Positions 37,028 through 45,362 of a DNA stretch of 64,000 nt are shown in pieces. The notes under the pieces were generated by a model that saw nothing but the letters and a program-made list of their open reading frames with translations, searched no databases and was not told the origin of the DNA. Numbering within the stretch: the first letter of the stretch is position 1; every line of letters begins with the position of its first letter. The position numbers were made by a program, and so were the translations under genes. This DNA comes from Luteolibacter rhizosphaerae (lineage in GTDB: Bacteria; Verrucomicrobiota; Verrucomicrobiia; Verrucomicrobiales; Akkermansiaceae): positions 1 to 64,000 of the forward strand of contig NZ_JAPDDR010000015.1 in NCBI RefSeq assembly GCF_025950095.1, read 5' to 3'.

Positions 37028-38269
37028 CTAGGGCTCGATCCGGATCGCCTTCCCCAGCATCGCCTCCGCGATCTCGAAGTCCACGGTCGTGCGGGCGTGA
37101 ATGCGACACAGCGCATGCCCTTGGTGAATGGAATCTCCAATCTTCACCAGTTGATCGAATCCGACCGCGTGATCGACACCATCGCTGGCCCGGGCCCGGC
37201 CCGCGCCGAGCTGCAACGCCGCTTGACCGACCATCCCGGCATCGACCTCCACGATCGTCCCCGTATCCGGCGCGGGGAACTCACGGATGACTGGTGCATG
37301 GTGGATCTCAGCCAGCTTCGGCAGATCGGCCGGATTGCCACCGTGCGCTTTCACGATCTCGTCGAACTTTTTTCGGGCGCTCCCGTCATCCAGAAGCTTC
37401 TCCAATTCGTCACGAGGAACAGGACTAATCTTCTCCGCGAGATCCAGCACCAGCTTCCGCAGGTCCAGCGGACCTCCGCCTTCAAGGCATTCGATCGACT
37501 CGATCACCTCCAGCGAATTTCCTACCGCCTTGCCTAGCGGCTCGCTCATCGGATTGAGGATCGCATGGACCTCCACGCCCATCTCCTTGCCCACGGCGAT
37601 CATCGAATCGGCGAGGATCTTCGCATCCGCCTCGGTCTTCATGAAAGCCCCCGTGCCGAACTTCACGTCCAGCACCAGCTTGTCGAGCGACTCGGCCAGC
37701 TTCTTCGACATGATCGAAGCCGTGATCAGCGGGATCGATGGCACGGTCCCGGTCACGTCACGCAGCGAATAGAGCTTCTTGTCCGCGGGGCAGAATCGGT
37801 CCGTCTGTCCCATCATCACCACGCCGATCTTCTCTAACATCTCCTGCGCCTCCGGGATCGTGATCCCTACCTTGAAGCCGGGGATCGACTCCAGCTTGTC
37901 CAAGGTGCCACCGGTAATGCCGAGCCCGCGCCCGGAAACCATCGGCACCCACACGCCCGTGCAGGCCACCAGCGGGGCGAGGATCAGCGAGACCTTGTCG
38001 CCGATACCGCCGGTCGAGTGCTTGTCCACCACCTCCGGATGACCCGCGCGATGCTCGAAGACATCGCCGCTCGCCAGCATCGCCTTGGTCAGCGCCGCCG
38101 TCTCCACCGCATCCATGCCCTTGAAGAACACCGCCATGGCGAAGGCGGACATCTGGTAGTCCGGGATCTCGCCGCTGGTATAGCCTTCGATCAGGAGCTT
38201 GATCTCGGCCGGATCGAGAGTCTCGCCTTCACGCTTGCGGGAAATGAGTGTGGGGACGTGGAGCTTCAT
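37028..38269 (-). CDS. deoA: Pyrimidine-nucleoside/thymidine phosphorylase
   Basis: The 413-residue protein cleaves thymidine or other pyrimidine nucleosides to the base and deoxyribose-1-phosphate. The diagnostic block KHSTGGIGDKVSLILAPLVA is present, with SGRGLGITGGTLDKLESIPG and DVKFGTGAF. Length and layout match DeoA/Pdp. It starts 17 bp after the deoB stop on the same strand. The product feeds DeoB, which moves phosphate to C5 for ribose/deoxyribose catabolism, so the pair makes a compact salvage operon. Confidence 0.95.
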   Translation of the reverse strand: MKLHVPTLISRKREGETLDPAEIKLLIEGYTSGEIPDYQMSAFAMAVFFKGMDAVETAALTKAMLASGDVFEHRAGHPEVVDKHSTGGIGDKVSLILAPLVACTGVWVPMVSGRGLGITGGTLDKLESIPGFKVGITIPEAQEMLEKIGVVMMGQTDRFCPADKKLYSLRDVTGTVPSIPLITASIMSKKLAESLDKLVLDVKFGTGAFMKTEADAKILADSMIAVGKEMGVEVHAILNPMSEPLGKAVGNSLEVIESIECLEGGGPLDLRKLVLDLAEKISPVPRDELEKLLDDGSARKKFDEIVKAHGGNPADLPKLAEIHHAPVIREFPAPDTGTIVEVDAGMVGQAALQLGAGRARASDGVDHAVGFDQLVKIGDSIHQGHALCRIHARTTVDFEIAEAMLGKAIRIEP

Positions 38270-38286
38270 GAGAGTAACGGGGCAAA

Positions 38287-39384
38287 CTAATCCAATCCAA
38301 ACCGGGCCGCAATGAGCCGCGCCACCTGCGTGAAATCCTCCGAGTTCAACAGCTCTAACGGCGCATTCAAGGTCAGCAAGGGGACCTGCTCCCGCGTGTG
38401 ATCGGTGCCTTGATGGTAGGGATCATTCCCATGATCCGCCGTGATCAGCAGGAAGTCCTCGCCCACCTCGGGCAGGAATCCTCCCAGCCAGGCATCGAAC
38501 TCGCGCAGGCATTGCGCATACCCGGCAGGATCCCGGCGATGACCGTAGAGCATGTCGAAGTCCACCAGGTTCGCGAAGATCAGGTGCGGCTGCTCACGCT
38601 TCTCGCGCCAAAGTCGCTCGATCACCGCCATGCCATCGGCATTCGATTTTGTGGGATGCGACTCGCTGATGCCGGAACCCGCGAAGATATCCGAGATCTT
38701 GCCAACTCCGATCGTCTCCACCCCAGCAGCCTGCAGCCGGTTCAGCACCGTCTCCGGCGGCATCAGCGAGTAGTCATGACGGTTCGCGGTCCGCTTGAAG
38801 CTCGCGGCCGAGTCTCCAAGAAACGGCCGCGCAATCACACGACCGACGCGGATTCCCCTCTGGTCAAGAACCTCCCGCGCGCGCTGGCAGAGTTCGTAAA
38901 GCTCCTTCAAGCCATACCTCTCCTCATGCGCCGCAATCTGCAGCACCGAGTCCGCACTGGTGTAGACGATCGGATATCCGCTCTTCAGATGCTCCTCGCC
39001 GAGCCTCTCCAGAATCTCCGTGCCCGACGCCGCGACATTGCCCAGAAACGGCCCCCCGATCTCATCGAGCAAATCCTGCGGGAACAACTCGAAGGTATCG
39101 AAGGGCTTCTCTAACACACAGCCCGCGATCTCCCAGTGCCCCGTAGTCGTATCCTTGCCCACCGACTTCTCCCGCATCCTCGCCCAAGCCGCGCCGGGAA
39201 GGGTGGGGGACTCGCCTCGATCGAGCACCTCTAGCAGCCCCAGCTTCGCCAGGTTCGGTAGCTCCAGTCCCTCCCTCTCGAAAAGGTGCCCGAGGGTGTC
39301 CGCCCCGGCGTCGCCGAAGTCAGCCGCATCCGGTGCAGCGCCACAACCCACCGAATCCAGCACGATCAGCAAGGCCCGTTTCAC
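38287..39384 (-). CDS. deoB: Phosphopentomutase
   Basis: The 365-residue DeoB interconverts (deoxy)ribose 1- and 5-phosphate. The N-terminal metal motif LLIVLDSVGCGAAPDA and LGHLF, the HEERYGLKELYELC segment, and the C-terminal TADHGNDP metal site are intact. The GTG at 39384 is the best start because it gives VKRALLIVLDSVG, as in the family; an in-frame TTG at 39420 is weaker. It lies 58 bp downstream of the membrane-anchored protein gene and directly upstream of deoA. Confidence 0.94.
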   Translation of the reverse strand: MKRALLIVLDSVGCGAAPDAADFGDAGADTLGHLFEREGLELPNLAKLGLLEVLDRGESPTLPGAAWARMREKSVGKDTTTGHWEIAGCVLEKPFDTFELFPQDLLDEIGGPFLGNVAASGTEILERLGEEHLKSGYPIVYTSADSVLQIAAHEERYGLKELYELCQRAREVLDQRGIRVGRVIARPFLGDSAASFKRTANRHDYSLMPPETVLNRLQAAGVETIGVGKISDIFAGSGISESHPTKSNADGMAVIERLWREKREQPHLIFANLVDFDMLYGHRRDPAGYAQCLREFDAWLGGFLPEVGEDFLLITADHGNDPYHQGTDHTREQVPLLTLNAPLELLNSEDFTQVARLIAARFGLD

Positions 39385-39442: not shown

Positions 39443-40570
39443 CTAATGCCGCGGCGATGGGTGCGCCAGCGCTTCCTGATGCGCTCGTAAGGCACGGTCG
39501 CGATCCTCACCCGGAGACTGCCGCTCGATCCACCTCGCCACGGACTGCGGGTTCTCCTGCGTCCAGGACTCCACCAGTCGGTCCAAGCTATCACCTCGCA
39601 GCGCAGGATCGGTGTTGCTCACAAACCACTCCATCCCGCGTGGCAGATCCGCCGGATCCAGCCTGGCCACGGCAGCCTCGCCGATCTTCGTGAAGCTCGC
39701 AGGCGGCAGCTCGACCTGCTTCAGATAGTCCCGCGCCAGATGAGGATCGGGATGCCTGGCCATCGCCAGCTCCACCAGGTCTTCACGCCCTTCTTTGGAA
39801 AGCCGCCTCAAGAACACCGGCAGGTTGTCGCCAGACATTACCTGCAGAACATCCTCCATCCTCCGATCCAAGTCTTTCCCCTCGAGCGTGATGATCCGCC
39901 CGAGATCGGCGCTCGAGGGCGCGGCGGCGATCCGTGCCGTGTCCACCAGTCCCGGCAGGTCCAGCGGCGCATTCCCACCGTAGGCGGCAAGAGTCTTCTC
40001 ATCGAGAGGCGGATCGGCCTTTCCTCGCATCTCCAGCCATTCCGCCGCCTTCTCCGGGTCGCGGGAAATCCAAGTTCTCACCACCAGCCGGAAGTTTTCC
40101 AGATCCCCGCCTTTGATCGCATGTTCGCAAGCCAGCGCCGGATCCCTGTCCAGCAACCGCACTGAGGTGCTCTCGTTCAAAAACATCGCGGCCTCGTCCG
40201 GCAGACCCGCATCACGCATCATCTGCGGAAGCAGGAGAATCTCATCCACGCTGGCATCCAAGAGATCTTCTTGGATGAACCTCTCTTCCTCTGGGAGGGT
40301 GTCCCGCTGCATGGCGATCGCGAAGAGACTCTTGAACTTCCCGATGTAGCTCCCGGCATCGAAGTTCCGCTTGCCGGAACGATCCAGCTTCACGGCCTTC
40401 GTCGTGCTACCCGTCCTGCGATCCTCGTCCCCGGTGCCGTGGCTCTCCGCGGTATGCCGGGCCCTTCGATTCAATTCGCGCTCCCGAGTCGCCAGCCGCT
40501 CGGCTTCCCCGGCTTGGTTAATTCCTAACAGGATTGCCATCACCACGATGGCGGCTAGCAGGACCTTCAT
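39443..40570 (-). CDS. Membrane-anchored protein coupled to the sigma-fusion gene
   Basis: The 375-residue protein has a single N-terminal membrane segment (LLAAIVVMAILLGI) and a long soluble helical domain, probably periplasmic. Repeated W-containing segments with a nearby Pro and Ala recur (RDPEKAAEWLEMRG, ENPQSVARWIERQ), similar in style to those in the sigma-factor extension upstream. Its ATG overlaps the sigma gene's stop (ATGA, 40570-40567), so the two are translationally coupled. It may sense or modulate whatever the sigma fusion responds to. No catalytic motif is seen. Confidence 0.68.
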   Translation of the reverse strand: MKVLLAAIVVMAILLGINQAGEAERLATRERELNRRARHTAESHGTGDEDRRTGSTTKAVKLDRSGKRNFDAGSYIGKFKSLFAIAMQRDTLPEEERFIQEDLLDASVDEILLLPQMMRDAGLPDEAAMFLNESTSVRLLDRDPALACEHAIKGGDLENFRLVVRTWISRDPEKAAEWLEMRGKADPPLDEKTLAAYGGNAPLDLPGLVDTARIAAAPSSADLGRIITLEGKDLDRRMEDVLQVMSGDNLPVFLRRLSKEGREDLVELAMARHPDPHLARDYLKQVELPPASFTKIGEAAVARLDPADLPRGMEWFVSNTDPALRGDSLDRLVESWTQENPQSVARWIERQSPGEDRDRALRAHQEALAHPSPRH

Positions 40571-42588
40571 CGGAAGAGTTCGGCAGGAAGTTGGGCTTCA
40601 TCGAGATCCTCCTGGCTGATCCCGCGCTCACGCATCTTCGCGAGCACCTCTTGGCCGCCGGGACTCGAGAGTAGTTCGCGCAGAATCTCCTCCCGCGTTG
40701 CGGTATTGCTGAGGTAGCGGTAGCGATCCAGCGCATCCACCACCGCCCGGGCGGAGGATCCGGCGTTGCGCATGTAGCTTTCCAGCATCTGCTGGTCGGG
40801 GTTTCGCTCCCACTCCGCGTCCAGCGCCTTCCCGGCATTCTCCGGAACGGACTTCATCATCTCCGCCAGGAAGAAACCGACGGCCGCAGCGGACTCCTCG
40901 CCCATGGCCGGGTCTTGCAGCCATGCGATGCGCTCCGCGATCTCCTCGGTCTTCATCTTTATCAGGTGGCTCACCACGCCCTCCGTGTAGGGGTCGCCGG
41001 CAGCGGAGAGCCCTAACAGTTCCGCCGCATCCTGCCCGCACGCTCCCGCACGATCCACCCAGGCCCGCACCTCCCCGGGTTCCTTGTCTTTCGTGCCGTA
41101 CTGGAAGATATTGCGGAGCGCGGATTGCCGCCTCTCCGGATCGTCGAACTTCGCCGCCATCTCCATGGACTTTTCGGCACCCGCAGCATTGAAGCGGTTC
41201 GCGATCGGGAATTGCTGATCCTCGGGCAGCGTGGCGTAAAATTCGTCCGCCAGCCGGGGATCGGCCTGCATCAGCCCGGCATAAATATCCGCCGAAGTGT
41301 AGAGGTTCACCCGCGTGTAGTCGAGCCGCCCGCAGCGGATCTGGTCACGATACCAGGCCATTGCCTTCTGCGGGTCCGCCGTCGCCCAGCGATTGAGCGT
41401 CCTTGCGGTCCAGCCCCACACCATGTCCTGACCTTCCCTCCCCAAGTGATCGGCGAGATACTCGCTCGTCCGCACAATGCGCTCTAGGTCGGCATCGGGA
41501 GTCGGCCGGTGGGCATAGCGCAGCAGCAGCTTGGAGATGAGGCCTCGTCTCTTGCCCGAGGGAAGCTCGGTGTCGATCGCCTCGCGGAGCAGCCCATCCA
41601 GCTCGTCCGCGCTCAGGCCTTGGATCATGCGCTCGGCTTTCGCCAGATCGGGGCGGGATCCCTTGCTTCCCTTTTCGATCGCGTCCGCCAGCCAAAGGAC
41701 GTCGTGCCGCTTGTTCCTGACCGTCATATTGGAGGTAACCGGATAGGTCTCACTCGCGGTGAGAGGCGGAGCATCACCAGCGACCATCTCCAGTCTCGCC
41801 ACCCGCTCGCGCGCCGATGCATTGGCGATCGCCTGCAGGGTGAGCGGCAGGGCGGCGAGAAGCAGCGTGGCCAGAATCGGAGTGGCAGGATGAAGTTTCA
41901 TCAGGTGCAGGGAGTGGGATGTCAGCGTTGTCCAAGAGATCGCCGCCGCACCGGCCGCGGGAGAACTGGCGAGACTTGCCAGCACCGGTGCCGGCGCCGC
42001 TTGCGAGAGACCGCTCCCCAGTCCGCTCGCCAGCACCGCGCCACTCACCGCGGCACCCCGTTTGCCCAGGCGCACCCGCAGCTTCTCCACCGCCCTCGAT
42101 CCACGCTGCCGCCATGTCGCGGACTCCCCGCCGAAACGCCGCGCCATCTCCTCGAAGCTCAGGCCTTCGAAGTAGCGCAGGAAGATCACCTCCCGATCCT
42201 TCGCGGGCAGGCCGTCGAGCGCCTGATCCAGCAGCGGCGCCGCCTCTTTCCAGCCTTCGGTTTCTTCCTCGGGACCATCCGGAGAGGGCATATGTTTCAT
42301 CCTCGCATCGTGCCGGCGCTCCCGGCGTTGGAGTTTGGAAGCCTCGTAGCACACCGTCCGGTGCAGCCACCCCGCGAGGTTCGGCACCTCCCGCAGCCCC
42401 TTGGCCTTGCGCGCCAGGATCAGCAGCGCGCCCTGCGCCGCTTCCCCCGCCAGATCGCTCCGACCGGTCCGCCGCAGCGCCGTGTGATAGAGCAGCCCGC
42501 CATAGCGCCGCGCCAGTTCCGCGAAGGCCCTCTCCGAGCCTTCCGCGCACCAGTCTTGCAGCAATTCGTCGTCACTCTGTTCCGTCAT
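40567..42588 (-). CDS. ECF sigma factor with transmembrane segment and long extracytoplasmic domain
   Basis: The 673-residue protein combines an ECF sigma-70 module (region 2 about 15-85; region 4 about 120-175, with EVIFLRYFEGLSFEEMARRF), a hydrophobic Ala-rich stretch (180-217), a membrane segment (about 235-255, ILATLLLAALPLTLQ) and a 400-residue extracytoplasmic helical domain. The domain contains short repeats of the type ADPQKAMAWYRDQI and KEPGEVRAWVDRAG. A normal ECF protein is about 190 residues. The long C-terminal part may serve as a built-in sensor or anti-sigma. Its stop overlaps the start of the next gene, and deoB-deoA follow. It is divergent from clpB. Confidence 0.88.
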   Translation of the reverse strand: MTEQSDDELLQDWCAEGSERAFAELARRYGGLLYHTALRRTGRSDLAGEAAQGALLILARKAKGLREVPNLAGWLHRTVCYEASKLQRRERRHDARMKHMPSPDGPEEETEGWKEAAPLLDQALDGLPAKDREVIFLRYFEGLSFEEMARRFGGESATWRQRGSRAVEKLRVRLGKRGAAVSGAVLASGLGSGLSQAAPAPVLASLASSPAAGAAAISWTTLTSHSLHLMKLHPATPILATLLLAALPLTLQAIANASARERVARLEMVAGDAPPLTASETYPVTSNMTVRNKRHDVLWLADAIEKGSKGSRPDLAKAERMIQGLSADELDGLLREAIDTELPSGKRRGLISKLLLRYAHRPTPDADLERIVRTSEYLADHLGREGQDMVWGWTARTLNRWATADPQKAMAWYRDQIRCGRLDYTRVNLYTSADIYAGLMQADPRLADEFYATLPEDQQFPIANRFNAAGAEKSMEMAAKFDDPERRQSALRNIFQYGTKDKEPGEVRAWVDRAGACGQDAAELLGLSAAGDPYTEGVVSHLIKMKTEEIAERIAWLQDPAMGEESAAAVGFFLAEMMKSVPENAGKALDAEWERNPDQQMLESYMRNAGSSARAVVDALDRYRYLSNTATREEILRELLSSPGGQEVLAKMRERGISQEDLDEAQLPAELFR

Positions 42589-42658
42589 TCCACCCTTATT
42601 CCTCCGCCTCCCCGCCTACCGTGACAGGAAAAATCGGGGCATTTGCCCGGGTTCGCAT

Positions 42659-42788: not shown

Positions 42789-45362
<2,574 letters not shown>

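Follow-up and report, generated by a model that had tools for sequence, protein, structure and literature searches.

The 64,000-nucleotide stretch of Luteolibacter rhizosphaerae DNA analysed here (contig NZ_JAPDDR010000015.1, positions 1 to 64,000; the window) carries on its minus strand two overlapping genes whose products are predicted to be membrane proteins: an extracytoplasmic function (ECF) sigma factor of 673 amino acids (aa) that continues through a membrane segment into a large outer domain, and a partner of 375 aa homologous to that domain. On balance, we lean towards reading the first as a one-piece receptor-sigma factor, which would be held inactive at the membrane until regulated proteolysis frees it; the partner would be its outer co-regulator. 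The features of the pair are as follows.

40567..42588 (-), ECF sigma factor with membrane segment and outer solenoid domain, 673 aa
42295..42588 (-), sigma2, residues 1-98
42055..42237 (-), sigma4 with recognition helix, residues 118-178; S164 covaries with the upstream element
41887..42054 (-), conserved linker rich in Ala, Ser and Pro, from sigma4 to the membrane segment, residues 179-234 (56 aa)
41818..41886 (-), membrane segment, residues 235-257; P248, L249 and Q252 invariant
40609..41718 (-), outer domain, a helical solenoid predicted by AlphaFold2, residues 291-660 (about 370 aa)
40567..40570 (-), ATGA stop-start overlap of the sigma and partner genes
39443..40570 (-), partner protein, homologous to the outer domain of the sigma factor, 375 aa
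40502..40570 (-), partner N-terminal membrane segment, residues 1-23; hydrophobic core preceded by Met-Lys only
39446..40369 (-), partner helical solenoid, predicted, residues 68-375
42621..42633 (-), promoter-like element TTTTTCCTGTCAC, with TGTC starting 38 bases ahead of the sigma start codon

Two predicted membrane proteins with homologous outer domains

Sigma70_r2 (25-92) and Sigma70_r4_2 (120-170) both scored over the curated Pfam cut-off in the sigma protein, as did TIGR02937 over that of NCBIfam. The Pfam listing held no other sigma region, leaving sigma2 and sigma4 without sigma1.1 or sigma3. By this domain content the protein is assigned to the ECF (group IV) sigma factors, and its structural model matched sigmaE, SigW and AlgU. 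The original prediction had described a 673-residue sigma protein with a membrane segment at about 235-255 and a large outer domain; we recovered the open reading frame (ORF) at 40567-42588 (-), a hydrophobic segment at 235-257 (19-residue mean hydropathy 1.92) and, after it, the predicted solenoid of about 370 aa. AlphaFold2 modelled this outer domain as all helical, with ten-residue confidence means mostly of 81-95 and dips at 421-430 and 531-550. Across 14 aligned orthologues, sigma2 and sigma4 each had a mean column identity of 84%, followed by the linker (74%), the membrane segment (65%) and the outer domain (55%). Pro248, Leu249 and Gln252 in the membrane segment were invariant, as were Arg262, Leu266 and Glu267 directly past it.

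Paralogues were surveyed in 52 fetched stretches plus the window, which held 51 sigma ORFs of 450 aa or longer, 50 of them distinct (10 in the window's genome, G000, 13 in G009, 9 in G006, 5 in G008, 10 in G011 and 3 in G025). The best hydrophobic segment scored 1.44 to 2.15 in the aligned orthologues, reaching at least 1.5 in 13 of the 14, and the best 19-residue segment reached at least 1.5 in 46 of the 50 distinct paralogues; in 36 of the 50 the segment started 52-59 residues past the end of sigma4. The proposal that the sigma factor is itself membrane-tethered is thus upheld at the level of prediction. The flank on the sigma side had the higher net charge in 35 of the 50 proteins, the lower in two and an equal one in 13. 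Because a positive-charge bias on that side is expected for an N terminus inside, these counts support a topology with sigma inside and the outer domain outside. The marks of a tethered ECF, a membrane segment that follows sigma4 and a domain outside the cytoplasm, are both predicted here.

Alignment of the sigma outer domain with the partner by hhalign scored 72.1 (E 7.3e-9), compared with 16.6 for a reversed control, at most 24.0 in 100 column shuffles and at most 37.0 in 60 block shuffles. Judged by this profile comparison, the two proteins are homologous over their whole outer domains. The sigma outer domain has a single W-x(3)-[DN]-P-x2-A-x2-W motif (about 401-412), as does the partner (167-178). 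A near copy, in which Val replaces Ala, lies at about 336-347. The orthologue pair of G009 (L137) holds one and two copies, against 0.0 and 0.02 in shuffles. The motif was also present in 13 of 188 non-sigma ORFs longer than 300 aa in the same stretches, a count that includes partners and in which the window itself has no share. The similar short repeats of the original prediction therefore stand as a shared motif within homologous domains; their description as a Trp with a nearby Pro-Ala was imprecise, the Ala lying three residues past the Pro. The comparison of hidden Markov models that it had named as a check was the one reported above; unrelated repeats, which would have spoken against the pair, were not what it found, nor, as far as sequence can test, did the sigma region prove nonfunctional or untethered.

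The partner gene overlaps the sigma stop codon at 40567-40570 in the ATGA that had been pointed out, and the membrane anchor also claimed for its product corresponds to the hydrophobic segment 1-23 (19-residue mean 2.24). Ten-residue confidence means in the partner model were 59-96, mostly above 80, and 86-95 across 201-370. We rejected a canonical membrane anti-sigma factor as the identity of the partner: its hydrophobic core begins at residue 3, after Met-Lys alone, which leaves no cytoplasmic sigma-binding part ahead of the membrane segment.

The outer parts of the two window proteins had no domain over the cut-off in Pfam or NCBIfam. WD40 and TPR were each without a Pfam match in the sigma protein, whose model is all helical and which has a membrane segment. 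Domain libraries searched with 22 partner relatives gave nothing but one weak TPR_19 match (E 0.0076), and a Pfam scan of 19 sigma paralogues and one partner gave nothing over the cut-off beyond the sigma regions. When solved structures were searched by sequence with two orthologue profiles, the best E was only 0.27; a broad partner profile matched one designed protein, 8gaq (E 9e-5). Foldseek alone returned nothing at E <=0.001, its top rows being ECF sigma factors.

Possible release or action at the membrane

We propose that the sigma protein spans the inner membrane, with sigma2 and sigma4 inside and the helical solenoid outside, as sequence and structure prediction indicate, and that in this tethered state it would be inactive or weakly active. 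The partner, anchored alongside by its N-terminal segment, may pair with or shield the outer domain of the sigma factor; we infer this pairing from the homology, the gene overlap and the co-inheritance described below. An envelope signal would alter the solenoid pairing, whereupon the outer domain would be cut; a site-2 protease would then cut the membrane segment and so free the sigma part to join RNA polymerase, all by analogy with IutY. The freed sigma would read TGTCAC before its own gene and raise its own operon, possibly including the downstream deoB and deoA; this autoregulation is proposed because the element is conserved and sigma4 residue 164 covaries with it. Of the sensor-regulator pair originally put forward, the tether and the domain homology are supported by sequence, as is a conserved two-gene unit; sensing by the outer domains, contact between the two proteins and release of the sigma part are hypothetical.

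Several observations count against this proposal. Pfam and NCBIfam recognised no anti-sigma domain of the FecR type or zinc-finger type in the linker or outer domain. The linker was modelled with low confidence (ten-residue means of 33-42 for 191-250; pTM of the whole model 0.52). The two flanks of the window protein's membrane segment are equally charged and so neutral on orientation, which therefore rests on the paralogues. Sequence analysis gave no direct sign of proteolysis. A site-2 protease homologue of the M50 family is encoded in the window's genome (G000:C3:441814-443103), but finding it there is hardly informative, since the family also had matches in 14 of 14 control genomes.

A tethered sigma factor could instead work without release, binding RNA polymerase and promoter in the membrane while its outer domain switches by conformation; ToxR and CadC are models for such membrane-bound action. 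The conserved 56-aa linker (74% mean column identity) could serve to fix the distance of sigma from the membrane, and no cleavage site is evident. We nevertheless regard action without release as unlikely, since an invariant Pro in the membrane segment would suit intramembrane cleavage, and since IutY, the tethered ECF that a review describes as experimentally characterised, is activated by Prc and RseP and is active in truncated form (PMC8999054, PMC5411451).

The tether itself is not new, because sigma factors with membrane-spanning extensions are known. The outer part of IutY (Pseudomonas putida, ECF243) is an anti-sigma domain of the FecR type that answers an outer-membrane receptor, whereas the outer part described here is a helical solenoid whose coupled partner is homologous to it. 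The two are alike in joining a cytosolic ECF sigma and a periplasmic domain in one polypeptide (PMC5411451), and in IutY Prc cuts back the periplasmic part and RseP then works on the remainder (PMC5411451, PMC8999054). ECF48, ECF52 and ECF53 of Actinobacteria, SCO4117 among them, similarly have a C-terminal membrane-spanning extension of up to about 400 residues, and their activation by proteolysis is expected (PMC8999054). Their extensions are described there as bearing a zinc finger and, in SCO4117, a carbohydrate-binding domain, unlike the proteins studied here, which have no Pfam domain over the cut-off beyond the sigma regions. ECF57 of Planctomycetes, a phylum whose ECFs include many young paralogues, shares a large C-terminal repeat extension; it is built of WD40-like repeats, in contrast to the all-helical solenoid here, and the available part of PMC8567305 mentions no homologous partner for it.

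ECF42 has a helical-repeat (TPR) C-terminal extension as well, but one of about 200 residues for which the available text mentions no membrane segment, whereas here a membrane segment is followed by about 370 residues. In RseA/RseB with sigmaE, a second extracytoplasmic protein of the operon likewise binds the outer domain of a membrane protein and influences its cleavage; the sigma factor of that system is made as a protein of its own. RseB is not known to be homologous to the outer part of RseA. What sets the present proteins apart from known ECFs is the helical solenoid, the want of a recognised anti-sigma domain, the homologous partner with its overlapping gene, and the many paralogous units. 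A search of the open-access literature, judged by titles and abstract starts, found no published study of these Verrucomicrobiota proteins; our impression is that signalling in the phylum has been little tested.

The upstream element and sigma4 residue 164

CTGTCAC lies upstream of the start codon in seven of seven orthologues compared, and TTTTCCTGTCAC in six of them, the exception being L032; in the six orthologues measured, the first base of TGTC is 38 or 39 bases ahead of the start codon. Among 51 upstream regions, a set that counts one gene twice, TGTC[ACT] occurred at -46 to -33 in 35, and in 31 of those 35 at -36 to -42. Shuffling gave a mean of 2.3 and a maximum of 7 (200 rounds), and four neighbouring windows gave 0 to 6 regions. 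If this is a -35 element, the leader would be short or absent. A sigma70-type promoter scan gave a single match, on the opposite strand and near chance.

With a slightly wider pattern, GTC was found in 37 of the 50 genes, the next base being A in 10, C in 20 and T in 7. Ser164 was present in all 10 genes with GTCA and in 3 of the 27 with GTC[CT] (p 8e-7), the lowest p among 1152 column-residue tests over sigma residues 116-275. It aligns without a gap with a His in the recognition helix of Mycobacterium tuberculosis SigE, which we equate with SigW H174 and Escherichia coli sigmaE F175, residues that contact the -35 element according to PMC6713349. The element and the covarying sigma4 residue together hint that each sigma factor may read its own promoter; they are suggestive and no proof.

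Further findings bear on this interpretation. The next-best columns, M230 (p 9e-6) and R260 (p 1e-5), fall in parts that do not bind DNA and could be mere clade markers. The Ser164 association is confounded by kinship, 6 of the 10 genes being orthologues. Of the four that remain, three (L020, L145 and L146) fall together in the outer-domain tree with L148 and L156, which have a different residue at 164 and a different base in the element, and L155 lies elsewhere; in L020 and L146 the element reads GGTCAC, not TGTCAC. It also counts against the proposal that genome searches, none of them with a looser pattern than the two given here, found no further target: exact TTTCCTGTCAC has four genome copies, of which the window copy alone has an ORF longer than 150 aa starting within 60 bases, and TTTTYCTGTCM has five sites including the window's, the other four being without an ORF longer than 150 aa starting 30 to 60 bases on.

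Another regulator might instead use the element as its operator, or it might be an RNA feature close to the start, rather than the sigma factor's own -35 element. Its narrow distance to the start codon would fit, as would an arrangement seen by eye in a subgroup of short-type, partnerless sigma genes (L015, L138, L154, L161 and L165), where TGTCCG is followed about 15 bases on by CGGACA, forming an inverted repeat directly before the start codon. We hold this explanation to be improbable, to about the same degree as action without release, in that the residue best tracking the element variant sits in the sigma4 recognition helix.

A repeated two-gene unit

Of 37 other genomes searched, six (G015, G009, G006, G011, G008 and G025) have a sigma protein relative that is almost full length, and in all six the partner's relative directly adjoins it. 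An iterated profile search found the solenoid outer domain in 32 of the 50 long sigma genes and not in the other 18. A partner relative lay directly downstream of 23 of the 32 with the solenoid and of none of the 18 without (Fisher p 4e-7, by this first rule). Four more partners, missed at first because the longest start had been taken, were recovered by using a start codon in four-base overlap with the sigma stop, giving 27 of 32. Such four-base overlaps occur at 18 of the 27 junctions, one with a GTG start, and L144 could be another. Over the 27 units, distances between outer domains correlated with those between partners at r 0.89, and distances between sigma domains with those between partners at r 0.73 (0 of 9999 permutations as high). 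These comparisons support a conserved two-gene unit.

Some units depart from this pattern. Five of the 32 solenoid sigma factors have no recognised partner (L023, L169, L170, L172 and L176; the L172 stretch stops 1.3 kb beyond the sigma gene). Among unit pairs with sigma domains less than 45% identical (298 of 351), the correlations were only 0.10 and 0.03, and co-inheritance is therefore supported just for closer units. L140's sigma gene, itself without the domain, has a weak solenoid ORF directly upstream (L140:5693-6478 (-)); its class is otherwise without a solenoid neighbour in the stretches examined. A single ancestral split into sigma and partner clades was unsupported: in a tree with long branches the two labels clustered (10 changes, against a shuffled mean of 21.4) without one such split.

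The partner could also be a target or passenger, the pair having arisen by duplication and the partner doing an unrelated envelope job while merely co-expressed with sigma. The helical solenoid family in the window's genome is large and unnamed: the partner profile has 79 matches there (E 0.001, several per ORF), many in ORFs of 400-500 aa, and many solenoid ORFs are not beside any of the ten long sigma genes of that genome. Set against this are the adjacency confined to solenoid sigma factors, the frequent four-base overlap and the correlated distances among closer units, and we consider a passenger role quite unlikely.

A hydrophobic stretch near the N terminus was present in 23 of 23 listed partners (15-residue mean 1.59 to 3.30). 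Four of the 23 have a lipobox pattern (L017, one of those at L022, L137 and L149); since the starts of the last three run on hydrophobic, L017 alone of these is taken as a probable lipoprotein, and by eye the start of L142 is similar. These partner starts, the charge bias placing N inside and C outside, and the finding of a second segment (at least 1.6) N-terminal to the main one in just 3 of the 50 paralogues make it very unlikely that the Ala-rich linker is a second membrane segment leaving the C-terminal domain in the cytoplasm as a protein-interaction extension like those of ECF42 and ECF57, even though linker hydropathy is 1.2 to 1.55 in several orthologues and, as a point against our topology, at least 1.5 in 2 of the 14.

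Returning to the tethered receptor-sigma factor, we advance more tentatively, as a possibility we would not yet bet on, that these units form a large, unnamed Verrucomicrobiota receptor family, in which sigma and sensor would be one protein, solenoid co-receptors would be co-inherited, and private autoregulatory loops, in which every sigma reads a promoter suited to its own sigma4 recognition helix, would provide a single genome with parallel, insulated channels from envelope to gene. If true, this would add to the membrane-tethered sigma factors a two-protein form that recurs and has no recognisable anti-sigma domain. The homologous outer domains raise the question of whether a solenoid receptor/co-receptor pair holds sigma at the membrane, and paralogous units with upstream elements that vary with sigma4 are a possible natural source of insulated sigma-promoter pairs.

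The named close relatives are Luteolibacter and Haloferula. A scan of a genome collection with the partner profile confirmed two loci, one in Haloferula sp. BvORR071, full length at 47%, and the other in an uncultured Verrucomicrobia bin, where the match is partial. In the window, deoB and deoA lie downstream on the same strand as the pair (37028-39384 (-)), and clpB diverges upstream (42789-45362 (+)). The surroundings are partly the same across relatives: clpB also diverges upstream in G015 and G009, and deoB lies downstream in G015 and about one gene length further in G006 and G008; neither gene was found in the G011 and G025 stretches examined, nor deoB in that of G009. Because deoB is near the pair in three related genomes, these nucleoside salvage genes (deoB, deoA) may share its transcript.

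At L022 (2346-10343, in G000:C5) two tethered sigma units stand in tandem, followed by a third solenoid ORF, an arrangement that suggests local duplication. A second class of tethered sigma factors, such as L015, L016 and L154, has a smaller outer part, and the genes are not followed by a solenoid partner; 16 of the 18 sigma proteins without the solenoid are 494-571 aa long.

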